64,000 bases of DNA from positions 124,001 through 188,000 of the forward strand of contig WHVA01000196.1 in assembly GCA_015179125.1 (NCBI GenBank), written 5' to 3'. The position numbers and the translations under genes were made by a program. The notes below the pieces were generated by a model that had not been told where the DNA came from, made no database searches, and saw nothing but the letters and a program-made list of their open reading frames with translations. Below are positions 6,168 through 59,300 of this stretch, piece by piece; positions within the stretch are counted from its first letter, which is position 1, and the number at the start of each line of letters is the position of its first letter. Origin of the DNA: Gautieria morchelliformis. Lineage: Eukaryota; Basidiomycota; Agaricomycetes; Gomphales; Gomphaceae.

Positions 6168-9100
6168 TGCCTTACATGCTTGAACCCCCACCAAAGAGGC
6201 TGAGAATCTATCAACAAGACTTGAACAAGTCCGACAAAGCGCAACACGACCTCCTCAACTCGCCAATCCACAAGGACTGGGACCTGATACTCCTCCAAGA
6301 ACCTTACACCGATGCCCTGGGCAATACCAGGGCCAACCACCATTGGCATGTACTCTACCCCACGTCCCATCTTACTGACGACTCTGCAAAGCGGTCCATC
6401 ATCCTAGTGAATGCGGCGCTCAACACCAACTCATGGATGCAACTCCCTCTCACAAACTCAAACGACATCACAGCCATTCAGATCAAACACCCACAAGGTA
6501 AAACCACCATCTTCAACATATACAATGACTGCATACACTCGAACACCCTGCACCACCTGGATCAGTTCATCGACCGGGAAAGACACAACATCATTCAGGC
6601 TGGCACGGATGCGATGCTGTGGTGTGGAGACTTCAATCGCCATCACCCCATGTGGGACAAAGGGTGAAACCATCACCTTTTCACAGCTACAGCAACCAGA
6701 GAGGCAGAAAAGCTGATCACGCTCCTGGCCGATTACAACATGATCATGGTGTTACCGAAACGCATCCCGACCCTCCAGTCAATGTCAACAAAGAACTGGA
6801 CCAGGGTAGACAACGTCTTTTGTACTGATAATGTGGCGGGGTCGGTCACCAAGTGTGACACCAATCCGGGCATGCGTGGACCGGGCACCAACCATGTGCC
6901 CATTCACACCATACTTGACGTCAAGATAGCGATCGACCTGCCAGTTCCCTTCCGCAACTTCAGGACAGTCGACTGGGAATACTTCAGGGAGGAGCTGGAA
7001 GGGCAACTGGAGCACCTCCCAGACCCGTGGGAGCTCAAGACCACAGATGAGTTCAATGAAGCTGTCGATGCGCTGACCGTGGCCATTCAGGCAACTATAG
7101 AAATCATGGTGCCGCTCTCCAAACTAGTCCCACATTCACGCAGGTGGTGGAGCAAAGAGCTATCAGTTTTAAAGAAGGAAAAGAACAGGCTAAATAACCT
7201 ATCCTATACCTATCGTGCGATAACTGACCACCCCTCCCATGAAGAACACCGACAGATCAGCGAAAAATACGGGGATGAAATAAAAAAGGCCAAAACACAG
7301 CATTGGGTCGACTACCTGGAAGACCTGGATGATGACCTGATCTGGTCGGCCAATGGATACCTGACCAACCCAGCCACAGACGGCGGGAAGTCAAGAATAC
7401 CCTCGTTGGAAACCTTAAGCTCAGATGGCGCCGCTCGCATGGCGGAATCCAACGAGGACAAGAGCCAAGCCTTAGCGGCAGCATTCTTTCCGCCCAAACC
7501 AGCCACCTCCCATGTCCCAAGCAGTCACAAGTACCCCAAGAGAGTCAACTACTGGTTCTAGCTCCACGAGGCCCAGCTCCGACGCCAAATCGCCAAGCTG
7601 AAGCCACACAAAGCCCCGGGGGACGATGGGATACCCAATGTCATTCTCAAAGAATCAGTGGAACTACTTGTTGGATACCTACTGTGGATCTACAGAGCCG
7701 TGTTTGTGCTGCAAACCTATAGCGATGGGTGGAAATCATGGATAACGGTGGTCCTCTGGAAGCCGGGAAAGGCCAGTTACAACACCCCTAAGTCCCATCG
7801 CCCTATTGCACTATATAACACTATGGGAAAACTACTGACAGTGATAATAACAGAAGACATGGTTTACATGACCGAAAGATATCATCTACTCCCAGCCAAC
7901 CACTTCGGGGGCAGGCCCGGCAGAACAACCACAGACTCACTCCACCTAGTCGTCAACAAGATCAAAGGCGCGTGGAGGCGCAAGAAAGTCGCTGTCATGC
8001 TGTTTCTGGACATAGAGGGTGCCTTCCCTCACGCCGTCACCGACCGCCTCTTACACAACATGCGAAAGCGGCGGATACCGGAAGAGTACGTACTATTCAC
8101 TGAAAGGATGCTAACAGACCGACGCACACGGCTGAGGTTTGATGGCTACCTCTCGGACTGGGTAACCATCGACAACGGTATAGGCCAAGGAGACCCACTC
8201 TCCATGATACTATACCTATTCTACAACGCGGACCTCATCGACATAACATCAGCGAAGGGACAGGCCGCGGTAGCATTTGTGGACGACGCCAACCTCTACG
8301 CAGAGGGTGACAGTTATGAGGAAGCATACGACAGCCTAAGTGAGATGCTACTCAAACCCGGGGGAGCGAGAGAGTGGATGGAGACACACCATTCGAGATT
8401 TGAAAACAGCAAGTTCGCCATGGTATGCTTGTCTCGTCGCAGGATCCCTGACCCAGCGCGGCCGGGCAAGACCCTACCTGACATCAAGCCGGGCTTTGTA
8501 TATGAGGGGGTGATGGTCCAACCCCAGGAATCACACAAGTTTCTGGGGGTCCTCTTAGACGAGGAACTGAGGTGGAAAATACAGGCAGAGAAGGCTGTAG
8601 CCAAAGCCACTAAGTGGACATTATTGTTTCGCAGACTATCTAAGCCCTCGACAGGTGTACGTGCAAAATACATGCGACAACTGTACTCCGCAGTGGCAAT
8701 ACCGAAATTCACCTATGCCCCCGACGTATGGTTCACTCCAGTCAGGAGACATGCAGGGAGGAAGAAGGCAACTGGATCAGTGGGAGTGGTATGCAAACTG
8801 ACATCTGTGCAAAGGATAGCGACCATAGCCATCACGGGAGCCATGAAAACCACAGTGACTGACATCCTGGAAGCTCACGCCAACATCCTCCCAGTGGAAC
8901 TCCTCCTGCTTTACGTCTGTTACCGGGCCGTGCTTCGCTTAGTCACCCTCCCAACATCTCACCCCCTGCACAAACCTGTCAAAGCCTGTGCTAACATGAT
9001 CATTCGCTGTCACCCGTCCCCCCTCCATACCCTGATGCACACGTTTGACCTGCAGCCGACTGACTATGAGACCATCACACTGGCGCTCCGGCCACCGAAT

Positions 9101-10120
9101 CAGCCTCCACTCTTCGAGACCGACATACCTGACTCGAGAGAGGAATCCAAGGAGGCCGACTCAGCGAACACCTCTGACGCCAAGATCTACACGGATGGCT
9201 CGGGGGTAGATGGGAACGCGGCTGCATCGGCGGTCCTATACAGGAGAGGGGGAGGCACCAGAATGTCAAGGTACTGTCTAGGAACGCTAGCTGACCACAC
9301 AACATATGAGGCGGAGGCCATGGGAGTCATCTTAGCACTCGAGCTGCTGTTGAAGGAAAGGGGTGTCGGCACGGCGACAATCCTCCTGGATAAACAGGCG
9401 GTCATTCAGTCCCTCAACCACATCAAACCACGGCCTGCTCAGCACATACTCGATCATGCGCACGAGCTGGCCAACAGAACCGCCGCCCCATCCAGACGAC
9501 GGAAGACCGAACTGAGAATCACATGGATCTCGGGCCATGACGATGTGAGTGGGAACGAGAGAGCAGATGCAGAGGCGAAGAAGGCCGCAAAGGGAGACGT
9601 TACCCAGGCGAGTGAACTACCAGCCTATCTCACCACAGACCCCCTACCCCGCAGCGTAGCCGCTGCCCGCCAATGTTTCAGAGAATACCTATGGGACCTG
9701 TGGAGGGTGAGATGGATGGCATCGCCACGATATGCACGAATGGTGGCTATCGACGACAATCTCCCGACCAAGAGCTACTTAAAAGACATAGCTGGCTTTA
9801 CGAGGGCACAGACCAGCCTCATGACACAACTTTGCACCACGCACATCCCGCTAAACGGCCACTTGTACCGCATACGGAGGTCCCAGTCCCCGCTCTGTCC
9901 AGCCTGCACCGGGGTGGAAGAAACCATCCACCACTATCTCTTTGATTCCCGAGCACACGAGCATGCAAGAGTAGCGCTGAGGAGGAAACTGGGACGAAGG
10001 TCAAAATCGTTAAGGGACCTCTTGGGATCACACAAGGCCATGACAGCGACACTGGCCTATGTGGCAGCAACGAAGAGACTACAAGCGACATTCGGTGATG
10101 TAAACCCCCCTCAGAATTAA
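6167..10120 (+). pseudogene. LINE-B ORF2: AP endonuclease - reverse transcriptase - RNase H, two stops
   Basis: One frame runs from ATG 6167 to 10120, broken only by TGA at 6665-6667 and TAG at 7559-7561. Endonuclease motifs: LLQEPYTDALGN, CGDFNRHHPMWD, TNHVPIHT. Reverse transcriptase: SHRPIALYNTMGKLL, FGGRPGRTTTDSLHL, LFLDIEGAFPHAV, IGQGDPLSMILY, AFVDDANLYAEG. RNase H (about 9180-9590): IYTDGSGVDGN, YEAEAMGV, ISGHDDVSGNERAD. The C-terminus has CPACTGVEETIHHYLF. The ORF2 ATG overlaps the ORF1 stop (TGATG at 6165-6169), which suggests translation by termination-reinitiation. The TGA sits where LINE-C has arginine (EERNAHLF), as expected from CGA to TGA. The protein would nick target DNA and copy the element RNA. 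Confidence 0.93.
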
Positions 10121-24159: not shown

Positions 24160-26884
24160 CAAAGTTGCTGGAAAGGCTCTTTCGTTTGCGCTGCCTACTG
24201 CCTACTGACTCTTGGCCATCGACAACAGGCCTGAAATGCGAGCACCTTCCCACTGTCGAACTGCTCTGCATATGTCCTAGTAACTACTACGTAAAACTCT
24301 TTGTCGATAAGGATGTGAAGAAGACTGCGTTACCTGCGAGCGGAAGTACTGCGTCGTGGGATGAGTCATTCTATTTGTGCGTTTAATCCCAGTGTTATCT
24401 TCACGTAGATCTTAAATCCATGCCCAGCAACGACTTGAATGGGGGTTCCGTATTAGGAATCGACGTCTACGGGCACCGTATCTTTACACGTGATTACTAC
24501 ATAGGCAGTGCATGGGAAAGCATTGAGTCGCTGCTTGCAGAAGGAGCAACTGCAGGTCAGTCCTTTTCGCTCCTCGACGGAATGCACGTGTAATCATCGA
24601 ACACAGCAGCCGTTGTTCGCACACTGCGTAAATACGACGACGCAGGGAACATGTGCGAGGTTCGGACTGTCCTAGAGTTCACCCTCACGTCTTTCGCGAC
24701 GTCCGACGAGGCGCGGGAGGCCCAGTTGAACGAAGCCGCCAGCGGAACGAGAGTGGTTGATAATATGAACCCGCCGCCGTCTCTAATCCCTTGTGTACGG
24801 AATATAGTCAACCGGGTTACTTCGACCACCAATACTATCGATCCAATAGTGGCAGCTTGGGATCTCCTCCTGAACAATATCAGGCTGTTTACCAAGATCG
24901 TGGATAAGGCCTCCGAGGTATAGTTCAAACACCGGGGGTCTCCCAGGTCGTCTCATTGACATGGTGTGCTTTAATTCTAGGTCCATCCTTATGCGAAAAT
25001 GGCATGGTCCATCCTGTCTCTTGCTCACACGGTACATTTATGACATACATTAACCGGATAGACATAGCTGACATCTGACTCTATTAGACAATCATTGATC
25101 AGATGGACCGGGAGGATAGGATCCATGGTCTGGCGAAATTTATCGGAGACACCTATGCATTCGTCCATCTGGCAGAGCCGTTGAGGAAAATTGAATCGCA
25201 GAAGCCAATTATCTTAGCCTTGGAGCAGCAGACGTTGGAGTGCAACTACTTTATCCGCGCCTACGCAAAAAACAAGCGATCCTGTATGTTGAGCCCACGG
25301 TCAGGTGGCCATAGCTGACGATCTTTGTTCAGGGAAAGGAACCGCGAAAAATGTAGTGTCGGATATCGACAGCATGATCAAACAGTACGAGGAATCTTTC
25401 GACAAACTCAAATCGGAGCTACAACAACATGCCGTGATTCACACTGAAATCACTGTACTACGTGTTCTGGATGTCGTCAATGACATCTGTGAGTTTCTGG
25501 TTTGAGGCATTTCCCAGGCTAATACGCATTGTAACCAGTTGGGAAAATTCTGCTGGATGACATGCCCTACGCAGACGGTGCTAAGTTCAATCCTGAAAAG
25601 GGATGTCTTCGGGATACTCGGGAGACAGTTCTTGCGGAGATCTGGGAGTGGGCGAACCAGGAGAGCGAGGACACCATGCATATTTTTCTTGAACGATGTT
25701 GCGGGGGCCGGCAAGTCTGCCATCGCCCATGAGGTCGCTAAAAGATTTGACCGGCTGAAACGTCTCGGGTCGTCGTACTTTTTTGAACGTGGTGATCAGA
25801 CACACCGCTCCCCCAGCAATGTCTTTAGCACGATTGCTTATGATCTGGCTGAGCGGGATCCAGCACGAAGGGCATCGTTGCTGAAAGTGGTCGGGGAACA
25901 GAAAGCACTTCGCACCACATGCGTACCTCGTGAGCAGTTCCAAAAATTCATTCTGGACCCCTCCAAGGACCTAACGTCCATTGGACCGAGCGTGATCGTT
26001 ATTGATGCACTGGATGAGAGCGGAGACCAGGAATCTCGCCAGGCTCTCTTGTCTGTCCTGCGCAATGAAGCAGCACAGCTGCCGTCTAATTTCCATCTTC
26101 TTATCACTGCCCGCGCCGAAGAAGACATCCTGGATGCCCTTCTTGGGCAGGAGCATGTCCTTTCCAGGCCCTTAAAGGATATTGACCCTAACCCTGTCGA
26201 TGCCGTCACCCGCTTTGTGAAAGACCAATTAGGTAACATTACGGACCTCGAGCGCAAATGGCCCAACAAGGGCTGGTGTCGGTTATTAGTCGAGAAGTCT
26301 GAAGGTCACTTTCAATGGGCGTCCACGGCTTGTCTGTTTGTTAAAGGAGGTGGTACGCGTGGTCACGTTCCTGTTAAGCAGCTAGAGAAAATTTTAGTCA
26401 AGGATCTCCATGGGATGGATAATCTTTATGGCGGTATACTCAAGCAGCTATTCGAGGATGGCGATGACTTGACGGACGATGTCAAATGTCGCTTTCGTTT
26501 GGTGATGGGCTGCCTGCTGACTGCCAGAGAACCGCTCTCTTTGTCTGCCCTGCAGAAGCTGTGCCATGGGGTCGAGTCGGGTACCGAGGTTCAAGCTGTT
26601 GTTGGGCCCATGGGCGCTCTGTTGAGTCTTCCTATTCGAGAATCTGACCCAATCAGCCTGCTGCACACGTCTTTTCGTGACTTCTTGACAGATCACAATC
26701 GGAGTAAAGCATACTACATCGATTCATCTTCACACCATGACGGCCTTGCACTCTCATGCTTGCGTGTGATGAAGGATGAACTTTGTTTCAACATTTGTCA
26801 GCTTGAAACTTCACATCTGCGCAACGACGATGTTGTGGACTTGGAGACACGGATCAAGAGGTATATCATCAGGAAAAAGGCATG

Positions 26885-27375
26885 GTGATACGCAGTCCTA
26901 CGCAGTCCCACGTAGGCGATGTAGGACTTGTAGCCCTGTAGGACATTGCCCGTTTATGGAGCGTACCGTAGTTCGGGTGTAGTGCTGTAGGCCGGTGTAG
27001 GCCGGTGTAGCTGTCATGTAGGGCTACATAGCGCGCCCACAAGACTACATTAAGCCCTGTACCTCGATGTAACGGCGAGGTAGTTGCGCTGTAGCGCTAT
27101 CCCGCGCGCCGTATTTCTTCAATCTGAGCTATTCTGGGATCAACTTCAATTGTTACATTTTTATGTTTGATTTGAGCTAGTTAGAGAGAATATATCACAT
27201 ATACGCGCGTGTACTATTCGCGACATAGCCCATGGGCAAATAAAGGCAATTGACCCCTCGATCCCCCTCAAATTCAATCCTCGTCGGATGATTCAATGGC
27301 CTGCGCGGCCAGGGAGAACTTCGTCATGTTGAAGTTTGGCTTCGGGTCATCTTGCAAGATCGGCAGGACAACTTT
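26885..27375. other. Insertion in the NLR linker, rich in GTAG words
   Basis: The NLR protein runs DLETRIKRYI up to about 26868 and resumes LSYSCRFWADHV at about 27376; the DNA between does not fit the family and contains stops. From 26890 to 27090, GTAG recurs more than ten times, often as TGTAGG at 8-12 bp spacing, with CCTAC words at the left edge, resembling the subterminal repeats of a DNA transposon. CAGGA stands at both edges (about 26867-26871 and 27371-27375) and could be a target duplication. No terminal inverted repeat was resolved. A retained intron is less likely because phases do not agree. Confidence 0.5.
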
Positions 27376-27823
27376 CGTACTCTTGCCGTTTTTGGGCGGA
27401 CCATGTTTGCGCCACCACCTTTACGCCGGGTACAAGTGCCGAGGTCAAGGAGTTCTTCGAGACTAACCTACTCTACTGGCTGGAGGTTGTGAGTCTGATA
27501 AAGCAGGTATCCGATGCGTCAGCAGCGCTCTCGCCAATAATGGACTGGAGTCAGGTGAGTGCCCGAGTTGTTATGAGCTCCGAAGTGAGTCTGATGAACT
27601 TCAGGATAATGACACTACAGCATTCGCCACGGATACCCACAATTTTGTAGCTGCGTTTGGGAATGCAATCTCTCAGAGTACTCCCCATCTCTATTTGTCA
27701 GCACTCCCGTTTGCACCTGAGAGGTCGAAACTATGCGAGACTTACCTCCCACGATTTCCACGACTACTCCGCGTCGAGACCGGGAAAGTGACGACGTGGC
27801 CACCTATTCAAACCGTTCTAGTA

Positions 27824-28855
27824 GGCCACACCGGGTGGGTCATGTCGGTGGCGTTCTCGCATGACGGCAAGCGCATCGTCTCCGGGTCTCGGGACCACAC
27901 GATCCGTGTGTGGAATGCAAACACCGGGGAGGTCACTTTAGCGCCATTCGAAGGCCACACCGGGTGGGTCATGTCGGTGGCGTTCTCGCATGACGGCAAG
28001 CGCATCGTCTCCGGGTCTGAAGACAAGACGATCCGTGTGTGGAATGCAGAGACCGGGGAGGCTATTTCAGCACCGTTCGAAGGCCACACCGACTGGGTCA
28101 CGTCGGTGGCGTTCTCGCACGATGGCAAGCGCATTGTCTCCGGGTCTCATGACAAGATGATCCGTGTGTGGAATGCAGAGACTGGGGAGGCCATTTCAGC
28201 ACCATTCGAAGGCCACACTGACTGCGTCACGTCGGTGGCGTTCTCGCACGATGGCAAGCGCATTGTCTCCGGGTCTCATGACAAGATGATCCGTGTGTGG
28301 AATGCAGAGACTGGGGAGGCCATTTCAGCACCATTCGAAGGCCACACTGACTGGGTCACGTCGGTGGCGTTCTCGCACGATGGCAAGCGCATTGTCTCCG
28401 GGTCTCATGACAAGACGATCCGTGTGTGGAATGCAGAGACTGGGGAGGGCATTTCAGCACCATTTGAAGGCCACACCGACTGGGTCAGGTCGGTGGCGTT
28501 CTCGCATCACGGCAAGCGCATTGTCTCCGGGTCTCAAGGCAAGATGGTCCGTGTGTGGAATGCAGACACCGGGGAGGCCATTTCAGCACCATTTGAAGGC
28601 CACACCAACTGTGTCACGTTGGTGGTGTTCTCGCACGACGGCAAGCGCATTGTCTCCGGGTCTCATGACAAGACGATCCGTGTGTGGAATGCAGACACTG
28701 GGGAGGCCATTTCAGCACCATTCGAAGGCCACACCGACTACGTCATGTCCGTGGCGTTCTCGCAGGACAGCAAGCGTATCGTCTCTGGGTATTATGACAA
28801 AACAATCTGTGTGTGGAATGCAGACAGGGGGGACTTCATCTCGGCACCATTCCCA
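27824..28855 (+). repeat. Eight tandem WD40 repeats of 129 bp
   Basis: Eight back-to-back 43-residue units, GHT..V.SVAFSHDGKRIVSG then S.DKTIRVWNA.TGE.ISAPFE, fill the exon exactly (8 x 129 = 1032 bp). Units 3 and 4 differ by one residue (DW to DC). Variation concentrates at a few positions: the two residues after GHT (GW, DW, DC, NC, DY), the residue two further on (M, T, R), and the residues after SGS (R, E, H, Q). This is the pattern of WD40 domains kept alike by unequal exchange while ligand-facing positions vary. The last unit is the most diverged (YYDKTICVWNADRGDF). Confidence 0.95.
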
Positions 28856-29139
28856 GGTCAGCCTAGTCAGTAGCTGTTATCTTTATTTGTCAGAACATGA
28901 CTGAATCTGCTAATATCCTTTGCACAGCTATGGGGCCTGGGTTTCAAAATGACTCACACCTTGAAAATGGCTGGTTACAAAACTCACTCTCACAACTTTT
29001 GTTCTGGATACCACCCTGGTCACAAACAGGTCTTTGGTGGCCAGCAAACACCGCTGTCATTGCCAAGGGGTCTACAAAGCTTGATTTCACCCAGTTTGAG
29101 CATGGCAGATTGTGGACGCAATGCAGAGAGGCCATATAA

Positions 29140-34729: not shown

Positions 34730-36733
34730 CTATTCCGCCAGGTATTCCCTGAATCTTGGCCAATCGACCTGGCGCCAGTTCCTTGTGGCTTGTTCCTTGG
34801 CTACCGTGGTGGATACGTCGATTGTGCTGGAGATGGGGAAGTGGTCGGCACATGGGGGCTGCAAGTTCAGGTAAGTGATACATTCCGAGAACAGATCATA
34901 CAGTGCCGAGCTGCTGAACACGTTGTCCGGCTGCGTTAGGTTTTTGGTGGTGCTTGCTCGTAGAGTTGGGAGGTCCTTCGGCAGCGCCATGAGCATGTCG
35001 TGCTGTGCCAGGAGGTCCAGTAGAATCTGTGCCCTGTCTAGATTAGCAGTTGTAAATAGGTGTGCGTTGCGCTCTTCGTTCCACAGCGGGTGGTGGCAGT
35101 TGAAATCCCCTATCCATGGCATTTTGAGTGGGTCGATGAGCTTGGTGCCTCGCACGTCCATCTGGATTGTGTCGTGTACAATTTGTATGCTGTGTGAGTT
35201 CTCGCAATCGTTGTATATGTTGAAGATCGTGATGATCCCGGTGTTGGTTTGTATTGCTGTTGCCACTACGTCTTGTGAGGGCACGTCGATCTGCTGCCAT
35301 GCGCTGGAGAGTAGGCGTTGGTTGACGAACGTGGTCGCACGGGTCTTTTTTGGGTTGTCCTTATGCACTGTGGGTGTGATCGTGTACCATCTATGGTTGG
35401 CACGTGTGTTGCCTAAAAAATCAAAGTAAGGTTCCTGTAAAAGTATGATGTCATAAGTATTCGGGTCCGTGGTGTTGATTAAATCCTGTTGGGCCGCATA
35501 GGACTTGTTAAGATTTTGCTGCCATATCTTCAATGTTGTGAGGGTGCTGTGTTGTGGTGTATTAATCATGGTGTGTGGGGTGAATGGCTGGAGTTCTATC
35601 TTCGTCAAGTGATTGTTGTGAGTCGAGGATGCGCTCCTCGCATGGTTTCCACGTGTGATGGATCGGTCCCTCAGTGCTCGTGGGGGCGGGCCCCCTCTTG
35701 GCTGGTTCCAGTAGGTGGGTTGGCAGCTGTGGGTCTGTTGTTGTGTGTTGGGTGTTGGGCGGAAGCGGGGGTGTAGTGCTGGGGCCGGGTGGTCGTATTC
35801 CGCGCGTGGTGTCGTGTCTATCGATTCCCAGGACTGAGGGTCTTTGCTAGCTGGAAAGAACCTCATGTTAGTTTCTGGGTGCTTAAGCTGGATCCATCTG
35901 GTGTGCTCCTTGCACTTGGGGCATTCGCAATCCCAGGACGCGTGCCCTACGTCTTCACAGTTGGTGCATCTATAGATTTTGGGGTCCGTTACTCTGCACT
36001 CTGCGGTTCTGTGTCCTGCATTCCCACACATTCCACAAGTGTCGATGGGCTGGGGGCAGTGTGCGGCTATGTGGGCAACCCCCAGTTTCTGGCATTTGAG
36101 GCATCGTCTGGCTTCTTGAAGCATTTTCCTGACTACTGTTCTGGTGCCGGTGATTAGAAGACCGCATCGTATTATCGTGTTCGCCGCCATTCGATTGCGC
36201 AGCTGTAATATCATGTGTGCCGTTGATTGGGTTGCTGTTCGTTTTCCTGGCGGCTTGATCCATCGTGCAGCTACTATGTCGCCCTTTTCCAAGCCATTGC
36301 TGGACTCTACCTCAGTGAGTTCCACTCGGGACTCCGGGTTGAATCTCATTGGGACAAATTCGGCGATGATTGAGTAGTTGTTGAACTTGACGACTGACAC
36401 GTTGCTGAATTTGGAGAGAAAGCTGTTGGAGGTTTGGTGGTTCTGCATCTGTTCTTCCGATTCCTCTGAGTGGAGCTCCAGGAAGAAGGCGCCACTTGGG
36501 AGCCTTTGCACCCCTATGAACTTCGGCTTTTCCTGTCCGTCATCCCAACTCATCTCTCCAACCGCTAGGTTGGCTTTGTTGAGTATGTCCGGCTCCGATA
36601 GTCTTGCTATGTCATGCTCTGTGGATTCTGGTGCCTTGTCAATTAGGATTTGTCGCGCGCGCAGGTCGCTTCTGGCTAAGGTGCTGGATTGGAGGCTGAC
36701 GGGCCTTGTGGCATGCTGCGAGTGCCGCTGCAT
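34730..36733 (-). pseudogene. LINE-C: ORF1 C-terminal half fused in frame to the ORF2 endonuclease
   Basis: One 667-codon minus-strand frame includes the ORF1 knuckles CLKCQKLGVAHIAAHC, CGMCGNAGHRTAEC and CTNCEDVGHASWDCEC, a low-complexity linker, and then the ORF2 endonuclease: LKIWQQNLNKSYAAQQDL, ILLQEPYFDFLGNTRANHRW, WIGDFNCHHPLWNEERNAHL and CADHFPISSTIDV. In LINE-B the corresponding ORFs are separate and overlap at TGATG. Here no stop intervenes, either by an indel or as a property of this subfamily. The frame ends at 34730, where the endonuclease normally passes into the reverse transcriptase. Confidence 0.88.
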
Positions 36734-37346
36734 ACGTCGGGTACCTGGATGGCTTGCTGGTTGTTGATGACTGCTCCATCTCCTGCGCTGGTGCAGTCGA
36801 TACTTGTGCCGTGACCGCTTCCACTATTCGCTGTGCGGTTCCGTTGCTTTCTTGCCTAAGTTCTTCCACTGTTCCTGCCAGGCTGTTAGTGGAGCTTTTG
36901 ATGGACATTACCGCTGTTTCTATTTGCCCTAATATAGGGGCGAGGATGTCGTTTACCCCGTGTATTCGTTCCTTGACTGCTGTTGCTACCTCGGTGGTGG
37001 TTGTCCTGTCTGTTAGATTGACCATCAGCATGGCTATGGCCCTGATCCCTTCCTCCGTTGTTTTTGGTATCAATGCTTGCGCTTCCACTAGATGGAGGAG
37101 TGCCATGGCTAGGTTGTGGTACATTATGGATTGGCGTTCTGGGAGGAGTCGTTTGTTGAGGAGGTACTGGTGGGCGGCTTCGGGTGACCGTGTTGTCTCG
37201 CTCTGGGTGCTGGTTTCCTCGTTTCTGGCTGTGGCCTGTGAGCTTGACCGCAGGCTGTGACTATGACTGTGGCCATCTGTCACTGTGGGTGTGTTTTGCT
37301 GAGGCGGTGATTTTTTGTTGGGGCCTGCGCCCGCTGGGGTTGGCAT
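36640..37346 (-). pseudogene. LINE-C ORF1, N-terminal half
   Basis: The minus-strand frame from 37346 has an N-terminus rich in serine, threonine and glutamine (MPTPAGAGPNKKSPPQQNTP), then helical sequence (YHNLAMALLHLVEAQALIPK, GQIETAVMSIKSSTNSLAG) similar in character to ORF1 of LINE-B (MESIIQKAQKVAEEVAAAAL). Near 36650-36730 the frame passes to the neighbouring one (36733-34730), so a one-base shift separates the halves. About 150 bp of 5' UTR precedes it. Confidence 0.8.
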
Positions 37347-40987: not shown

Positions 40988-43616
40988 GCTGACACCTTGT
41001 AACCGACAGGAAGTACAGTCCTTCGTTGGCTTCGTGAACTTCTACCGCCGATTCATCCAGGACTTCTCCCATCATGCTCGGCCCCTCTTTGACCTGACCA
41101 AGAAGATGTCACTTGGGTTTGGACTGAGGCCGAACAAGCCGCCTTTGACAAGCTCAAGCAGCTGGTCACCTCGGCCCCAATCCTTGTATTCCCAGATGAC
41201 TTCCGCCCCTTCCAAGTGGAAGCCGACTCGTCCGACATGGCTACCGGGGCTGTCCTGTCCCAGCAGTCCCGGCAAGACGAGAAGTGCCATCCGATTGCCT
41301 ATTTCTCCAAGAGCCTGAGTCCTGTTGAACGGAATTATGAGATCCACGCCAAAGAGATGCTGGCGATCATCCAGACATTAGAAGAGTGGCGGCACTTCCT
41401 TGAAGGAGCTCACAGTTGAGTCGAGGTCTGGGCGGACCACAAAAACTTGGAGTATTTCCGCATGTCTAAGAAGCTCAACCGGAGGCAAGCCCGGTGATCC
41501 CTCTACTTGTCTCGGTTTGACTTCGAGTTGCACCACCAGCCGGGAAGGTACATGGGTAAACCGGATGCCCTGTCCCGACGCGCAGGTCATGACTCTGGGA
41601 GTGGAGACAACGCTGACCTAACACTGTTCCGTCCCGAGCTCTTTGTGGTCCAGGCACTTGAAGGAGTGACGGCCATTGGCGAAGAAGCCGACATCCTCCG
41701 AGACATCTTCAGGGGTTTCCGAGATGAGGGAAGTGAGGAGTCGGTTGTGAAGGCAGTGGAAGAACTTCAGAAGGGGCACTCCAACTCAGTACGAAGTGCT
41801 GAGTGGTTGGAGAGGGATGGGCTGTTGCAATTTCGGGGAAAGATCTACATCCCAGATAGGCATGACCTCGAATTGTGTCCCAGCACCATGACACTCGGGT
41901 AGCCAGGCACACCGGGAGGTGGAAGACGTTGGAACTGGTAGCGCAGAACTATTGGTGGCTGCAGATACATCAGCCGGTACGTAAGGTCCTGTGACCTCTG
42001 CCTACGCACCAAGGCCCAAGGCCGACCCCCGATGGGTGAGCTAGTTCCACTCCCTGTTCCCGAATGCCGGTGGGATACGGTCAGTGTAGACTTCATTGTC
42101 AAACTACTGGAATCCCATGGGTACGACACGGTCATGTGTGTGGTGGACCTAGTGAGCAAGAGGTCCCACTTCATCCCGACCATGACCACAGTAACAGCCC
42201 TCGGGGTGGCCCGACTGTTCCTTGGGAATGTCTGGAAACTGCATGGGCTCCTGCGCCAGGTAGTTTCCAATCGAGGCCCCCAATTCGTGGCCGAGCTTAC
42301 CTGAGAACTATACCGCATGCTCGGGATTAGACTGACCACGACCACCGTGTATCACCCGCAAGGGGATTGCCAGATGGAATGTGTCAACCATGAGCTCAAA
42401 CAGTACCTTTGGCTCTTTGTGAACGAGAGGCAAGACGACTGGGACGAACTCCTCCCACTCGTGGAGTTCCAGTACAACAACCACGTCCACTCCTCAACCC
42501 AAGAAACCCCATTCATGCTCAACACTGGCTGGCATCCTCGGATGGGCTTCGAACCCGACCAGCCAACTCTCGGATGGAAGCTGTGAACCAATTCCGGGAC
42601 TGAATGGAAGCCTCCCTCGTGGAAGCGTGGTCAGCACTGGTCAAGGCAAAGGACGACATGGCTCGGTATTATAACCAACACTGAATCCCTGCCCCCGAGT
42701 ACACCATCGGAGACTGGGTCTTCCTTGATGCAAGTGACATCTGAACCACCCGGCCCTCGGCTAAGCTAGCCCACCGATACCTCGGCCCCTTCATGGTAGT
42801 TTGGAAAGTCGGGAAGAACACGTATCAGTTGTGCCTGCCCGCCTCAATGGCTCAGTTGCACCCAGTGTTCAATGTTGTGAAACTCCTCCCAGCCCCTGAA
42901 GACCCGATCCCAGGCTGAAGAGGCAGGCCCCCACCACCACCTGAAATTGTTGATGGGGAGGAACATTATGTCATTGACAAGATACTCGACAGTCGCCTCC
43001 TATAAGGTTGCCTCCAGTTCTTAGTCAAATGGGAGGGCTACGGGTATGAGGAGAACTCGTGGGTATCTGAAGATGATGTCCATGCACCAGCCAAAGTGCG
43101 GGAATTTTACCGAACCCACCCAGGAGCACCCCGAAGGGTCAAGTCAACAGCCTTCCATTCGATAATGTCCCATGCTTCGAGGAGGCAGCACTCTAGAGGG
43201 GGGGGGAGGTGATGTCAGGGGAATCCCCTCCCAAGCATATTTCTAGCCTCGGCTTCGGCTCTGACCCGAGATCCGGGTCCAACCCAAACACAACCTGAGG
43301 GCATGACCTAGTTTCCAAAGCCTCGGCTTCAGGAACCGTCCCTGAATGGCGCCAAGGCAGTGGGTTGAGACGTGCGTAGTAGGTGAGGGCCCTGGAGGCG
43401 TGGATGTGTGTCAGGAGTGGAGCAGGCATCCCCGACTTCGATCAGGGGTATGAGGTATATAGGTAGTGCACTGGTAGTGGAGGTCCTTAGCTTTTCCTCT
43501 TTGGATCCTCCTCTACCAGGTGAGTTGTATGTCATATAGGTAGCTTTTATTCATATCTTTGGATCCTCCTCTACCAGGCCGCATGAGTCTGCCACCTAGG
43601 GAGCGTTGCCCTCACA
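40988..43616 (+). mobile_element. Chromodomain Gypsy element (chromovirus), 5' half missing, broken
   Basis: A fossil element on the plus strand. Parts in order: end of the reverse transcriptase ([20 protein letters not shown]), RNase H ([36 protein letters not shown]), integrase (VSVDFIVKLLESHGYDTVMC, YHPQGDCQMECVNHELKQYL), chromodomain (FLVKWEGYGYEENSWVSEDD), a purine-rich tract and the 3' LTR. Gag, protease and most of the reverse transcriptase are absent; the element starts at the edge of the 1.27-kb unit. There are several breaks in the coding part, so it looks old. Confidence 0.9.
43213..43616 (+). mobile_element. 3' LTR of the chromovirus
   Basis: It starts TGTCAGGGGAATCCCC straight after the purine-rich tract AGAGGGGGGGGGAGG and ends GTTGCCCTCACA. 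It contains a TATA-like GGTATATAGG and two CTTTGGATCCTCCTCTACCA blocks. The solo LTR at 2107-2600 has the same termini and block layout. Confidence 0.88.
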
Positions 43617-43629
43617 AAAGGATAGTGTT

Positions 43630-43900
43630 TGGCTTTAACATGTGTCAGATGATATTGTAGTGCACAATATGATGTGCTCAATCATTTTATACCACTCCCC
43701 TCAAGCTCGAAACATTCCAAGGATCCCAAGGATGTGGAGATGCTTGTGAGCAGGTAGTGGTTTAGTGAGGACGTCAACTGGGTTCTCAAGTGTTTTGATG
43801 TATCAAAGATTGATGTTCCCAGCCGTAATCTGCTCCTTGGTGTAGTGATAGTGGACATCTATGTGTGTTGTCCTGCTGTTATTGGCATCCTGTAGCGGCT
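43630..43900 (-). mobile_element. Ty1/Copia pol scrap (end of RNase H)
   Basis: On the minus strand it reads HYHYTKEQITAGNINL then DVLTKPLPAHKHLHILGILG and a purine-rich CTTGAGGGGAGTGG, the usual end of a Copia polyprotein (compare ADILTKGLSSPRVKIL at 62250). It is a short broken remnant with no LTR identified. It adjoins the end of the chromovirus LTR. Confidence 0.7.
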
Positions 43901-44127
43901 CTTCAGCGCCAGTCCCCAACTCCTCTACAGGATTGACTACCTTCATAAGCTATGGCATTGTTTGTACAATTCCAGTCAAGTGTTACATATGAAAGTATCA
44001 TTACATGTCATATGTGATACCTCTGGGTTGTTGACACCCATCAGTCTGGATTTGAATACTGCGTTGCATTTCATAGATGAAAGAAATAATGAAAAAGTTT
44101 GAAGGTGCATAGCAGTCGCTCCCATTC
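43901..44127. other. Unassigned DNA
   Basis: Short stretch between the Copia scrap and the unrecognised minus-strand gene. Nothing was supported. Confidence 0.4.
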
Positions 44128-47009
44128 TTAACCCAAAGTTGATGCACATTCAGTTGAATCAGTGACACATAGGGACCTCTTTTGTGGAGGTATGTTCTCG
44201 TCAGTGATCTCAGTTAGAAGCTGCTTCTGTTTGGTCACCACCTTTCCTGCCTGAGGTGCAGGTGTTGGTTTCTGTGGTGCAAGGGAGGAGTTGGAAGGGG
44301 TCATTTCAAACGGAACCCATGGACTTGAGGGTTCAGTCATGCTGGCAGGAGAACTCAGGATGGTTGTCATCGATTTCAACCCATGCTGCACAGTTGGCAA
44401 GATTTGCATTCATTTCAGAATGAGCTGGTAAGCTCAGGAGCCATTTGGATTCTTTTCATCCAGCTTGATATGCCACCTGGAATGGATCAACATTTGCTAA
44501 GGGTGAATGGTGTATCATTTGAGAGCTTACATGCGCAAAGTTGTCTGAACATCCACCAATGTCCCTTTGGTCAGTACTGAGTTGTACTGAAGTGGCATTA
44601 TTGCAACACCCTGTGAGTCGTGGACGTGGGGGGAGATGACAGGCACTGATCCAGCAACATTCTTTACAGAGGAGAAATGTGCTTGCAGCTCTGGAATATC
44701 CACCAACGTGAGGCTGCCTGGGAAGGTGGTTAGGTGACATGTCATGTAGGTAAAATATTTCTTCAGTGTACCTGGTGTATCCATGGTGGCAGAGTCACTC
44801 ATCAAAGAACTTTGAGGTACAGTTGTTGACAGAGGCCCACTTGCGGGAGCTTCCAGCTTATGAATAAGCATGGTAAGAGAGGGAAGGGAGCACTGGAGAC
44901 ATACTTTCCAGTATGCTCCTCATAATCTTAACAGGAGATCTGGTGCTGGAAAGGGGGACCTCATTGAACAGATTGTCTGAATTGATTAAGACTAGGAAGG
45001 TGCCATTTTCTTGTCTCTGTGTGAAAGCGTGAACTCTCGGTTCTTGTTCATCATTCAGTCCTGATGTTACGATACGATCCATCGTAAGGTTGGCCGAGGT
45101 CGGGAACGAAACCCGAGGCAAGGTCCGAGGTTACGGGGCGAGGTCTGGATGGGGAGGTCGGAGAGGGACTTGGCTTCAGCTTATGTGCTGCGCCGACCCT
45201 ACGCATGAGTCCCAACTTCGGAGGCAAACGAATAAGAGGCGAGGCTTAGAAACTAGCTAGGGATCGAAGGGATACGATAGTTGATTTTCAGACTGAGGAG
45301 TAGGAATGCATACAAGGAGGTTATATACGAGTGAGGGTACGAGTCAGGGGCGAACATATTAGTGGAGGTCAGGGCGAAGTCAGGAGACCGAGGTCAGGGC
45401 GAGGTAATATACGAATGATGCGTGATGGAGCGGAATCAGTAACTAAGGGGATACGGGCATGGGATCAAGGTCGGATATGAACTCAAGCTCGGGCTTGGGC
45501 TCGGGCGCGGATAAGGATCATATGTACTTGGGCACGAATATCACATGGCTCGGGCTCGGGAGAAGGTTTTACCGGTAAGTAACCGGCCAAAGGCCGGGTC
45601 CTTACACCTGAGTTATGTGTTAGGTTGAAGTGACAAACATATCAAGCATAGATACCTGTATTCAGCTCATCATCTTTTTCTTGTTGAATAACATGCAGGA
45701 CATTTTCGATATATATCGCTTTGGTCCGCAGATTTTCCAGCCCTTCTAATTGTAAGTCAAGAGCCCACACCATTCTGATTTTTAAAAGCCCTCAAAGGTC
45801 AAACTGCCCAAATTTTTCAATGCTGGTAAGATAAGGACTCAAGCAGCCTGTACATACCTTAGACATTTCGCCCTCCTTGTTTCCGTATGACATGAGTTTG
45901 GAGTCACGGGTACTTCGAATAATCCATGCAGGAAAGCGTAAAAGCAGGCATTTGTTCCCCACATCACATTTATTGAACCACTCATCTGCACCTATTTTTT
46001 TTTTTCAAACCTTGTGTAGAAACACGTCATGTATGAAACATCCTTAGGACAGTTGTGAGATTCTACCACAGTGACCTCCATGGGTTTGAGCTTGCCCATA
46101 TCAGCATTGTCGAAGTCTTCGTCAGAACAATGTCAGAGCAGCACATACTTGTGGAAAATTTCTAAGTGGGCAGGGACAGATGAAATGAGGAATGCAAGGT
46201 GAAGTTGAAGAGATGACTACTTGCATATTTATTAGAATGGGCACATCAATGATAGCTTGCACATATTAAATTGATCATTTCACATCTAACTTTACAGTGC
46301 ACAGTGGCCATGGCTGATCCCTATTTGCTGTTGTGGACTTGATGTGATCTGTAAACCTGATGGATTAACTGGATCACATGGAGCCACTGGGTAGTTTTGC
46401 TTAGAAGCGGTTAATGCAATTCCTGAGGCAACGCCATCATGTGATTTAGCATCACCCCCTCAGGGACAGCATCTGATGCGCACTTCGTTAGCTCGAGGCT
46501 AAGTGATCCATGTGCATGTAGCGCTTACTATCACCACAATTTGGCTGTCAGTTCTGAAACAGTTGTTCAAGACACAGTCCAGGTGGGGTGCCTGGAGCCT
46601 GCCATGGGCAACAGGGAAAATAGGGGCCAAGAGAGAAAAAGGGAGGCTGTTGAAGTCCCTTGGCACAGACACCTAGACTATCAGGAAGTTACATAGATGT
46701 GGAAAAATATAAGTGTGACTGCATGTTACCATCAGGTGTTTCAAGAACTAGTGGGTTTATTATGTCGTAAAGTTCATCCATGGTGCAGTATGGCACACCT
46801 CCATTTTGCTGCCCATCATATATCAATATCCCCTTGTCTTTTCCTATCAGACGGACAGCAAAGTGCATGTAACCTACATAAATTCTCATGGTTAATGTGT
46901 AGTTCCACATACCATGGGAGTGGGTATGGATACCATTGTGCTTGAGCTCAGCTCTCCACTCAAGAGATATTTCATATTTCATCCAAGGATAAACCTGATG
47001 ACATCCCAA
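44128..47009 (-). CDS. Unrecognised multi-exon gene, minus strand, probably damaged
   Basis: Several minus-strand blocks look like exons in order. 47009-46730 reads EISLEWRAELKHNGIHTHSH and GYMHFAVRLIGKDKGILIYD, ending at a GTAACA donor. About 46150-46018 reads DEDFDNADMGKLKPMEVTVV then SHNCPKDVSYMTCFYTR. About 45990-45880 reads NKCLLLRFPAWIIRSTRDSK and ends at GTATGTAC. About 45770-45653 reads DLQLEGLENLRTKAIYIENV. About 45050-44460 reads TSGLNDEQEPRVHAFTQRQE then FPGSLTLVDIPELQAHFSSV. 44409-44128 is a proline- and lysine-rich tail. I recognise no family; the IYDGQQNGG block has the look of a cysteine-protease-like or transposon-borne fold, but that is a guess. A one-base slip near 44860 and an internal stop suggest decay. 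A solo LTR lies between two of its exons. Confidence 0.4.
45065..45606 (-). mobile_element. Gypsy-type solo LTR (542 bp)
   Basis: On the minus strand it begins TGTAAGGACCCGGCC and ends ATCGTAACA, with the 5-bp duplication CCTGA (45060-45064 and 45607-45611). It matches the LTR at 57764-58295. It sits in what appears to be an intron of the unrecognised minus-strand gene, just upstream of an exon whose acceptor (ACTCAG) overlaps the duplication. It contains many GGTCGGG/CGAGGT and GCTCGGGCTCGGG words. Confidence 0.93.
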
Positions 47010-47596
47010 TGCAACTTCTGGATAAAAGTTTGATATTATTTGAAAATTGATACAAAAGTGGCCAGGTGATTTTTGGTCTAAAACGCCATGCTGCTCACAA
47101 ATCCAGAAATATCAACATTCATCACATTCCCCAGATTAGTAATAGCATGGTCATCAATAGCCCACAGGTATGCAGCAGTGAGAGACAGAATCCCAGTTCC
47201 TTGAGTGGCGCAAAGGGCTTAGAGCAGCGTGGTAAAGGCATTTTGGCACCAGCGAGGCTTCCATGCAGGAAAAACTTTATCAGAGGATGGGATGTGTAAA
47301 ATACAAGTAATCCAAGAAAAAAAGAGCAGGCGCGGTAAAATACAAGTATGCAAGGGGGTACCTGGTGATGACATGAGGCGTTAAAAAACCCCAGGGGGGG
47401 GAAATCATTCGTGCCGCACAGGGATGCAAGTGGAGAGAGAGGGGGGGTGGGGAGGCAAAAATGATGGAGAACAACAGAACAAGCTAAGCTGTTTAAAGTC
47501 AGTGTGCACGGATTGCGAGTAGCTATTAATTACCTGTGCAAAGGTAATGCCACAACGCAAGCAAGCGAGGAAAGGCACATAAGCGCAAAAACAGAT
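47010..47596. other. Unassigned DNA
   Basis: Possible upstream region of the unrecognised minus-strand gene. It contains the direct words GGTAAAATACAAGTA and GTGTAAAATACAAGTA about 45 bp apart (47295 and 47335), and a G-run near 47440. No gene was supported. Confidence 0.4.
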
Positions 47597-47601
47597 AAAG
47601 G

Positions 47602-48663
47602 TGTTATGATATATGCAACTATCCTATTTTAAGTCATCTATGTATACAAAGAAGCTAATAAAAGAAAGAAAGAAAAAACGACCAAAAAAGACAGGAACGA
47701 CACTCACGACAGACATCGACACAGACGACAGACACATGACATCACGAATGGCTATCTTATCTACAGATTAGATAAGATACAGGGATAAGGGCATCGACCA
47801 CGTGCAGCCGATCAAAGACAGCACGCCTATCGACTGATGGCATTGGCCATGATGTCGACGGGCGCCAGGCCACAGGCACCGAGGAGGTGTGGGCACCAAA
47901 TGCCACAGAGGAGTGTAGCCTGCGGAGGAGCACTGGACGTGGCGGAATGACTTCAGAATGTCATTCCTAATATGTGTGCTCAATCAGCTGCCCCACGGAA
48001 GAGGCACAGAGCCAGCGGCCCCATCACCAAGCCTAGCATTTATGCGGGGCAGGAGAGATTTAATTTCTATTTTCTATTGAGCTCCATCACACGACCAGCT
48101 GACTACTATCTTGACACCATGTAGACAGGGGCTTTGTATAATAGGTACAAGACTCTATTCCAAAGCTTAAACAACCCTGATACTATCCCCATCACTCCCA
48201 TGACTTTATGACTATAATTAGTCACCCCTCTAGTTACAAGTAGTTTTTCGACCCATCGACTCACTATCTTGAACACCGATAGTTACCACTAGCATAGTAT
48301 AAATAGCTACTATGAATGTATGAACAAATCATCCAGAATCAACTGTTTCACCCCTTGAAGTCACTGTAGTCTTGTTTGATAGCTACAGAGCTTAGATCTC
48401 GATAGTTTACTCCAATTCTTCGTTGAGAGTTCACTATTACTGTTTACTCTAGACTACCTCAAAAGCGAAGCCTTTTGATTTAGTTATCCCTTATATCGAG
48501 ACCATTCTCTCGTTGACACGGTCACGTGACCTCCATCCATCAGTGCCGGACGCACCTCGAGAGGCTTAGTCAGCACACAGGAGAGGGACAGACATAGCGG
48601 TCCCAACCGCTAACCAATAGAAATTGTTTGCTAAAGGCACCATCTAATATTTTAATCATAAAA
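47602..48663 (+). mobile_element. 1.06-kb LTR-like unit, copy 1
   Basis: It runs TGTTATGAT...ATCATAAAA, flanked by the 5-bp duplication AAAGG (47597-47601 and 48664-48668). A second copy at 55342-56401 has its own duplication. Inside are a palindromic TATCTTATC...GATAAGATA (about 47754-47780), a TATA-like AGTATAAATAGC (about 48296) and CACGTGACC words. It is probably a solo LTR, orientation set by the TATA-like box; the termini are TG...AA rather than TG...CA. Confidence 0.75.
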
Positions 48664-48802
48664 AAAGGCCTGGGTGAGCCCCCCACTAAGACATGATGAC
48701 AAACCCTATGATGCAGGCTCAACTATGCTGAAGCGGGACTCAGGTCTGCTAGTGAAACAGCATCCAGTGGAATGCAGATCAGCATCAGCAGAGGGTGAAG
48801 CA
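48664..48802. other. Short unassigned segment
   Basis: DNA between the LTR-like unit and the Copia-type solo LTR. Nothing was recognised. Confidence 0.4.
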
Positions 48803-48840
48803 TGTTAGCAACTAGGGGTTATGGCAGGGAAGGTTCGGTA

Positions 48841-50028
48841 TAGGGATGCACACCGTGCCGTACATCCACGGCTGTATGCTGCCGTATTACGGCCACGGCA
48901 CCCATACCGTTGAGGGTCTGTGCTCTGTGCTGACGGTACGGTATACAGTATGGTTTGATGCCGTATGATGCCGTATTTGTACGGCCGTATATGGTATGTA
49001 CGGCGATATACGGCATGCACTACTGTTTCAATTTCAGCTCTATTTCAGCTTCAGCTCCTCGATGTCGTCTCCTACTCAAGTGCCAAGTGAGTCCGCCATC
49101 CACACCTACCAAGTGTACTATGTACTATTTCACGTACTCACAACGAATCACCCTTCTATAGTTGGGCAGCATGTGCGTCGCCGTTTTGATCATAATACAT
49201 GGTTCTACTGACAATGGTCTAGTACTTGATCCTCGCATCTCTTATGAAGGGATGGAGCTTGATTATGCAGGCGACGAGTCGCTTTCTGAACATCTCGAAT
49301 CATCAAAAAAGAATCTGTATGAATACTATGAGGCCCATTATGCGGGCAAACACTCTGCGTCTTTGCAAGTGACTGATCCTGTGCCTGGTCCATCAGCTGA
49401 AGCTTCAGCCCCTCCTCACTCCCCTCCAAAGAATTTTACATCGCGCTTTCAGTGGAAGGCCAAGGCAGCGATCCATGAACTCGATGAATTCTTCAAGCTT
49501 CCTCAAGAGGATTTCGAGGCTTGCAATCCAATCCATTGGTGGATGGGTCGCCGTGCTCAATTCCCCAACTGGTTTTTGCTTGCTCGGGACATTCTCTGTA
49601 TCCCCGGTTGCATACTATGCTGTTATTGGAGTTTTTAGGGCTGACATTGTGACTATCTTAGGATCTGCCGTCGCCGTTGAGCGAGTTTTCTCAGGAGGTC
49701 ATGACACAATCTCATTGCGACGTGCAAGGCTTCAGCCTGAAACCATCAAAGTTCTAATGCTCAGCAAAAAAAAGCTTCATCTTGAACGCGCTCAGTGCAG
49801 AGCTGCAGTACGTCGTTAACATACCATGATTAGATCTTGTATCTACATTTACAATGCTATAATACAACCGTCAACCGTAATACAGACGGTACGGTACTGT
49901 ATGGTACCCGTACCGTACCGTCGGAGGGAGGAGGTCTCCATCATACGGACGGCATACGGTCTGCCGTATCCGTCAACTCGCTGTACATTATACGGCTGTG
50001 GCCGTAATACGGACGGTGTACATCCCTA
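48841..50028 (+). mobile_element. Short hAT DNA transposon (1188 bp) with perfect ends
   Basis: Terminal inverted repeats TAGGGATG-CACACCGT and ACGGTGTA-CATCCCTA, with an exact 8-bp duplication GTTCGGTA (48833-48840 and 50029-50036), the hAT hallmark. Both subterminal regions are packed with CCGTAT/ATACGG and TACGGT words, likely transposase binding sites. Only the C-terminal part of a transposase is encoded, so this is an internally deleted, non-autonomous copy. Intact ends and duplication imply a recent jump. Confidence 0.97.
49162..49819 (+). pseudogene. hAT transposase C-terminal remnant with one intron
   Basis: Exon 49162-49606 reads ELDEFFKLPQEDFEACNPIH then WWMGRRAQFPNWFLLARDIL and CIP. 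A 55-bp GT-AG intron (49607-49661, GTTGCA...ATCTTAG) splices in phase to GSAVAVERVFSGGHDTISLR followed by RARLQPETIKVLMLSKKKLH, stop at 49819. This is the hAT C-terminal dimerisation region, ending in the conserved AVERVFSxGxDT signature. The catalytic domain (DDE region) is not present in the element, so it cannot transpose by itself; it could at most make a dimerising fragment. The ATG at 49162 is the first in frame and is unproven; an upstream intron near 49087-49161 is possible. Confidence 0.88.
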
Positions 50029-58295: not shown

Positions 58296-58505
58296 CTATT
58301 TTCAGACTGATTACACCCTACGTATCCCTTTTCTTCACTAGGTCCATGATGACTCATTCCTGCACCCTTCAGGGTATCTCAGAACAACGACGCTTCTCCA
58401 AGGACGCCGACGATTCACCACCATCCCCGGGCATACCCCTTGCGGACCCCGCCGAGCCTAGTAATAAAGGCAAAGGTAGGGCTAACTCCAGTGACCCTTC
58501 AGGTG

Positions 58506-59300
58506 ATCCAGTCGAGGTACACACAGACGACACCTTCCATAATCATATCTCCGAAAACATCATTCATCATGGTCTGGAAGGTTGCCGGGCTGTTTGTAAG
58601 GCCGAAGAACATGACCCGAGGTTTGAACAGGCCTCTGTTCATCCAGAAAGCAGCCTTCCACTCATCCCCTTCCCGAATACGGACATTGTTGAACCCCCAT
58701 CGGACATGCAGCTTTGTAAAGTACTTCACCCCTCGGAGTTGGTTGATGAGTTCGGAGATGAGGTGGATCAGATACTGGTTCTTGATTGTGATCATGTTCA
58801 AGGCTCGGTAATCTTGGACAAGCTGGAGGGACCCATCCTTCTTTTTGATGAAGAAGACCGGGGATGCCATAGGGGACTTAGACGGGGTGATCCTCCCAGT
58901 ATGGAGGTTTTCCCGCAGGAAGTCGTCCAGGTCAATCTGCTCCCAGGGGGAGAGCGGGTACACCTTGCAGTTCATCGGCTTGGATCCGGGCTCAAGTTTG
59001 ATCACATGGTCCCAGACCTTGCAAGTTGGCAGAGTGTCAAAGGATTTCTTGGTGAAGACCTCTTCGAATTCCCGCAGGTACTCCAGGATGTGTGCCTTGG
59101 CTTTGGTGTACTTCTGGGAAGCCTCGGCAAGGCGTTGAGATGTCCTGGTTGCTGCTCGGATAAACTCGGGTTCAGGCTCTGGGGGTAAGTCCACATAGAG
59201 TAAGTGGTCTCCCTGTTGAAGCAGGCTTGCAAGATGGGCTTGTTAGGGGTCTGTGGCTTCCGAGGGGCCCTCCTTGGCTTCATCATCTGAGCCATCTACT
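58506..59300 (-). mobile_element. Reverse-oriented Gypsy reverse transcriptase piece inside another Gypsy element
   Basis: Minus-strand frame reads KSPMASPVFFIKKKDGSLQL, VQDYRALNMITIKNQYLIHL and MFFGLTNSPATFQTMMNDVF, then VVCVYLD, a chromovirus-like reverse transcriptase that ends at the palm motif, with a protease-proximal part upstream (FTKKSFDTLPTCKVWDHVIK). Both ends lie in the gag of the plus-strand element. No LTR accompanies it, so a secondary rearrangement or a repair-patch insertion is likelier than retrotransposition. Confidence 0.85.

Follow-up and report, generated by a model that had tools for sequence, protein, structure and literature searches.

The window, that is, the whole 64,000-nucleotide stretch of DNA analysed here, spans positions 124001-188000 of contig C222 in an assembly of 122 Mb and 1113 contigs. 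Its forward strand carries a C2-helical-NACHT-WD40 NLR gene, the last exon of which contains a tandem array of eight WD40 units (Table 1). Six introns of 49-63 bp join the upstream exon pieces into one open reading, which begins at a provisional start. Scanning of the 374 N-terminal residues that follow from this provisional start gave C2 as the sole Pfam family above its cut-off (E 7.2e-07; 29.8 bits against a cut-off of 22), and a HET domain was not found; the stretch behind the C2-like domain is, by our own reading, mainly helical. The NTPase part matches Pfam PF24883 (NPHP3_N), which we take to be NACHT-like, at E 9.3e-23, and the PF05729 NACHT model gave no match on the window gene at E 0.001. 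Elsewhere in the window, open frames that by eye resemble LINE-type retroelements lie at 3768-10120 and 34730-37346, and minus-strand frames at 58499-59194 and 62227-63990 resemble, again by eye, gypsy-type and copia-type polyproteins. With its short introns, its NACHT-WD40 genes and these retroelement-like frames the DNA has a fungal look, and we take the source to be a basidiomycete on account of the C2-type NLR, a type known from few members of that group (PMC4986451).

Table 1. Features of the NLR-type gene and its WD40 array, in window coordinates
Feature	Position	Strand	Basis
N-terminal coding part: C2-like domain, then mainly helical stretch (our reading)	24231-25673	+	Gene model, Pfam C2
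Exons of the N-terminal part	24231-24376, 24428-24555, 24607-24917, 24981-25031, 25088-25283, 25333-25488, 25539 onward	+	
2-bp deletion, frameshift just before Walker A	25673-25674	+	Alignment with C859 and C748; tblastn frame change
NACHT-like NTPase part	25674-26866	+	NPHP3_N at ~25668-26114, open reading
Weak winged-helix-like stretch	~26496-26774	+	PF25521, E 5.6e-4, under its cut-off
Inserted 501-bp element fragment	26867-27367	+	Absent from C859 and C748
Coding sequence between NACHT and array, first part	27368-27554	+	Open reading restarts after insert
Intron, 50 bp	27555-27604	+	GT-AG, preserves reading
Last exon: linker, eight WD40 units, stop TAG at 28871-28873	27605-28873	+	Open reading
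Array of eight 129-bp (43-residue) WD40 units	27824-28855	+	TRF, unit-by-unit translation, Pfam
Units 3-5, recently duplicated core	28082-28468	+	2-4 differences of 129
Unit 8, edge unit	28727-28855	+	7/129 from last unit of C859, 26-29 from siblings

The window gene has the domain order of a fungal NLR, a NACHT-like domain (NPHP3_N) followed by WD40 repeats, but the intact frame through all domains is lost to a frameshift and an insert. The NACHT frame runs into a stop at 26886-26888, inside the insert, which has 48 matches in the genome, the closest full-length copy being 99% identical. Because all nine copies of the element that were compared extend past its right end, and seven of the nine share its left end with differing flanks, the insert is the terminal fragment of a longer multicopy interspersed element (transposon). 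Read on the reverse strand, the element resembles by eye the terminal part of some coding sequence. We rejected an intron as the interpretation of the insert, which is missing from the related loci on contigs C859 and C748 and is a piece of a multicopy element. An assembly error might account for the frameshift ahead of Walker A but would explain the insert less readily. As assembled, the window copy is unable to give a full receptor; with both lesions it probably makes none, and it is unlikely to be a working receptor.

TRF described the array as 8.0 copies with 91% matches, 0% indels and a score of 1549, and translation unit by unit placed all eight units in register in a single open frame, each exactly 129 bp long; Pfam WD40 matched 8 stretches (E 2.1e-97). 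The first-pass annotation, made from the sequence alone, therefore had the coordinates and the count correct, and its single residue of difference between units 3 and 4 is a change from W5 to C5, with two bases altered. Its description of the units as almost identical outside a few codons was too strong, as any two units are separated by 2-29 differences in 129 bases and 22/43 codons carry nonsynonymous change (15/43 in units 1-7). Units 3, 4 and 5 are the only trio of mutual near-copies in the array. Mean amino-acid identity is 0.81 over all eight units and 0.87 over units 2-7, so that the core of the array reaches the repeat identity above 85% across at least 100 residues by which high-internal-conservation (HIC) WD40 arrays have been defined (PMC4986451), and the whole array misses it. 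An all-unit mean of at least 0.85 was reached by two of 31 arrays in the genome, and one of at least 0.80 by 14; for HNWD genes, a repeat identity of 80-100% is given (PMC12222747).

An AlphaFold2 model of the eight-unit array (three sequences; mean pLDDT 83.0, pTM 0.80) has 24 regular strands in eight repeats, and the array is predicted to close as one eight-bladed propeller. Foldseek returned ODA16 first, and its matches include Rsa4 and, among the best, the eight-bladed design Tako8 (TMt 0.95, rmsd 1.5); ODA16 and Rsa4 are likewise eight-bladed. The closest solved sequence is PDB 2ymu (E 2.2e-139), presumably the WRAP of Nostoc punctiforme. In the predicted strands, codons 4-5 of the unit fall just ahead of strand a, codon 7 at its start, and codons 23-25 between strands b and c. 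A model of a 14-unit array was of low confidence (mean pLDDT 58.4, pTM 0.44) and was set aside.

The window gene belongs to a large family. A WD40 search of the genome gave 180 matches, with at least 94 places among the matches listed, and the C2-NACHT stretch has 40 further matches at 79%-96% identity, close relatives keeping the layout. We read 32 arrays, 27 of which belong to the 94 places, the others (C316, C473, C600, C211 and C399) coming from other searches. The NACHT exon is in one piece at 18 of 26 loci and split at eight, including the window locus, where it is in three; among these 26, C859 and C316 are identical there, C694 is only partly visible, and the query was taken from C223. 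A stop or frameshift inside the array was found in 6/32 arrays (C859 and C316, which share the same stop, C748, C211, C142 and C246), the window array being free of them. The close relatives C859, C748 and C211 are thus also damaged, at other places than the window copy.

An allele of the window array was not found when the 8 kb at 42000-50000 were searched against the genome and 40 candidates scored. This segment matches C211 at 94% over its first 3 kb and at 92% over a further 0.56 kb, the other matches being repeat-like. The RNA polymerase subunit family, used as a check on ploidy, gave ten matches spread over five contigs, including one that is degraded. Since a eukaryote carries some three genes of this family, the assembly does not look fully doubled. 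In the synteny test, the distant piece of C600 was mostly high-copy repeat.

The concerted evolution that had been proposed for the array is seen in the family as homogenisation within arrays, with edge units largely escaping it. In a clustering test from which C473, with fewer than five units, was excluded, the nearest relative of an internal unit (n=323) came from the same array 56% of the time, compared with 3% in shuffled data; for first units the figure was 17% and for last units 24% (n=31 each). Without codons 4, 5, 7, 23 and 25, the proportions were 41% for internal, 11% for first and 12% for last units, and with third positions alone 36%, 9% and 7%. As the first and last values in both reduced sets lie inside or just over the range of 200 shuffles, the homogenisation belongs to the array interior. 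The interior is homogenised and the edges are mostly spared, as unequal exchange inside the array would give. For units 1 and 2 of the window array, the closest units are found in other arrays, and unit 8 is nearest to the last unit of C859.

Comparison of units with the NACHT part of the same genes suggests a quicker turnover for the arrays than for the remainder of the gene. Over 23 loci (253 pairs), the mean distance between the units of two arrays showed no correlation with NACHT distance (Spearman 0.05, p 0.41), and the smallest such distance rose weakly with it (Spearman 0.16, p 0.011). The window locus and C859 are 4.1% divergent in NACHT and 12.0% on average in their units; when the window array is compared with loci whose NACHT is 15-23% divergent, its units differ on average by 11.9-18.4%, or by 23.4% in the case of C473 with its two units. 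There was no sign of recent exchange between loci: none of the 228 pairs with NACHT divergence of at least 12% (23 loci) shares a unit within 3.1%. Older exchange may have occurred.

Repeat number, which the earlier reading had expected to differ among strains, does vary among paralogues and in one pair of loci with flanks about 98% identical. Over 31 arrays (C316 left out), length ranges from 2 to 16 units, with ten arrays of 14 units and four each of 8, 15 and 16, counts that rest on a score threshold and, for C164b, on the longest run only. The numbers peak at 14, then at 8, 15 and 16, as if near one or two whole propellers. The pair in question is C600 and C473, with 14 and 2 units, respectively, 98.4% identity across 3.3 kb upstream and similar downstream flanks; the two units of C473 are counterparts of the first and last units of C600, the NACHT exon is split in both, and the two are either alleles or a recent duplicate. 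Over ~6.5 kb, C859 and C316 differ by one 1-bp indel; within the array they switch to different units (16 versus 6 in total), and their 3′ flanks are diverged. This switch may be exchange or misassembly. The shared part of C316 lies near the end of its contig, as it would after a misjoin, and we therefore did not take the pair to prove a change of length.

Variation within the unit is localised, as had been noticed at the outset, with nonsynonymous change concentrated at codons 4, 5, 7, 23 and 25 of 43. In het-d and het-e of Podospora, four codons (7, 9, 25 and 27), flanking conserved sites 8 and 26, are reported as positively selected (PMC1805685, PMC2873952). These correspond in our mapping to codons 5, 7, 23 and 25 here, since the spacing is the same and the conserved V6 and D24 lie between them; the likeness to het-d/het-e that had been suggested extends to fast change at the same codons. 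Of 123,410 four-codon sets, 263 have a pN at least as high as the Podospora four when the window array is taken by itself (p = 0.002); across 31 arrays this is so for only five sets, the Podospora four included, with the same outcome when the window array is left out. The top five codons by pN are 23, 5, 4, 7 and 25. Codons 37 and 43, outside the Podospora four, also exceed the mean silent rate. Codons 5, 7 and 23 are spaced exactly as are R1-2, R1 and D-1, the contact residues on the top face of WD40 propellers, which are positions 16, 18 and 34 in G-beta (PMC3419727).

A codon-by-codon comparison of replacement and silent change had been proposed as a check on the window array, and in that array by itself its outcome is borderline. 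Over 30 arrays, pN/pS was 1.44 (bootstrap 1.28-1.65) at codons 5, 7, 23 and 25 and 1.43 (1.25-1.64) with the addition of codon 4, which joined the set after inspection of the data, as against 0.41 (0.37-0.45) at the 38 codons outside the five; these are pairwise counts that ignore shared ancestry, between-unit recombination defeating tree-based tests. The sample for these ratios is non-random, the arrays being matches to the window array and its flanks, and it comprises arrays of at least five units, which excludes C473 (two units), with C316 also excluded from the bootstrap. Within the window array, the five codons carry 16 nonsynonymous and 2 synonymous distinct-codon changes, compared with 23.5 and 15.5 elsewhere (Fisher p = 0.034). 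Variants of this test gave p = 0.11 (four codons, units 1-8), 0.054 (five codons, units 1-7) and 0.035 (four codons, units 1-7). With few silent changes to count, pN/pS of the window array at the four codons is ~1.0 for units 1-8 (0.298/0.298) and 1.7 for units 1-7 (0.265/0.152). In the literature searched, most subscription papers being outside its scope, we came across no test of selection at single sites in the WD40 arrays of basidiomycetes, and we claim no priority.

Our data are consistent with a model, to which we give a probability of roughly 0.85, where the array is the sensor WD40 domain of a C2-helical-NACHT-WD40 NLR from a large family, with a homogenised interior and diversifying contact codons, carried by a broken copy. 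The localised variation might instead reflect relaxed constraint on loop codons and drift without selection, an explanation that we regard as unlikely. Loops do tolerate change, pN is somewhat elevated at codons 13 and 15 in the loop joining strands a and b (0.155 and 0.102), and the ratios of the window array by itself would suit it; however, codons 12, 14 and 16 of the same loop are low (pN 0.016, 0.019 and 0.052), the 30-array ratio stays above 1 throughout its bootstrap range, and the positions are those selected in Podospora, three of them spaced like known contacts. It is highly improbable that the identity among units comes from assembly or collapse and not from concerted evolution: although the break between C859 and C316 is misjoin-like, the units of the window array are 2-29 bases apart, unlike a collapse, and 31 arrays show both within-array clustering and the edge effect.

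The gene might also still be used, either with the insert spliced out or with the WD40 exon expressed alone as a decoy or stand-alone propeller, which would account for an array exon open across eight units and a propeller predicted with good confidence. We consider this improbable. The frameshift ahead of Walker A damages the gene independently of the insert, the NACHT frame stops within the insert, and the insert itself is a piece of a multicopy element that neither of the two aligned relatives carries at this place. That the array is still open needs no further explanation than recent damage, since the insert is 99% identical to the closest full-length copy of the element. We infer that the window locus is a recently broken pseudogene, whose array retains the pattern laid down when the gene and its relatives worked. 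An attractive repeat array may, as this locus teaches, sit on a dead gene.

In the model that we favour, that of a diversifying sensor array on a broken NLR copy, unequal exchange within the array would homogenise the interior units, with the edges mostly escaping. The codons that precede or open strand a of the predicted propeller, and those of its b-c turn, change amino acid faster than silent sites, and the rest of the unit is conserved. The variable residues may bind varied partners, such as non-self or pathogen cues, with selection across the family keeping contact residues varied. Binding of a partner could then open the NACHT switch and leave the N-terminal part to take effect, possibly at a membrane. 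The at least 94 WD40 places, with Podospora-defined codons that change fast, would be a concrete set of candidate receptors. A bolder and doubtful extension is that at least 90 or so NACHT-WD40 loci, broken ones included, store sensor arrays. On this reading, arrays would be rebuilt far faster than the remaining gene, the contact residues under diversifying selection would be those of ascomycete het genes, and a recognition design shared across phyla might underlie somatic incompatibility or antiviral and antibacterial sensing in mushrooms.

With an NLR-type gene, homogenisation and the het-d/het-e codons, the first-pass annotation named the right kind of system: its fungal NLR with shuffled repeats stands as a NACHT-like/WD40 gene and has to be amended for the window copy with its two lesions. 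Systems of this kind are already well described. The window locus is a damaged member, the damage being probably recent, and what makes it interesting is the large family around it. Somatic incompatibility is described as poorly understood in basidiomycetes, the models coming from ascomycetes (PMC8229728). According to the available text of one survey, C2-type NLRs are reported only in a few basidiomycetes, where WD40 is the prevailing repeat type (PMC4986451); an NWD expansion of 99 ORFs is reported in Piriformospora indica (PMC3192844), and a further survey also covers basidiomycete NLRs (PMC9815663). The basidiomycete C2/WD NLRs share with the family described here both expansion and highly conserved repeats, and the selection tests described in the available parts of these reports (PMC4986451, PMC3192844) concern Podospora repeats and not basidiomycete WD40 arrays. 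The WRAP (PMC9218822) has recently amplified blades, as here, and sits behind a STAND-type domain, but its 14 blades form two seven-bladed rings, whereas the eight units of the window array are predicted to form one eight-bladed ring.

The closest parallel in our comparison is the HNWD/NWD family of Podospora anserina (het-d, het-e and het-r; PMC1805685, PMC2873952, PMC12222747), which shares NACHT and very similar WD40 units, and for which concerted evolution within arrays, length change and four fast-changing codons are also reported. The two differ at the N-terminus, where the HNWD family has a HET domain and the window gene a C2-like one with HET not found, and in number, with 10 HNWD members reported in Podospora against at least 94 WD40 places in this genome. 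Exchange of repeats between loci is reported in Podospora, whereas the 228 pairs from 23 loci compared here include no recent case. Lastly, the accessible account of Podospora HNWD pseudogenes describes a broken NACHT with WD40 units free or nearly free of stops (PMC1805685), as at the window locus.
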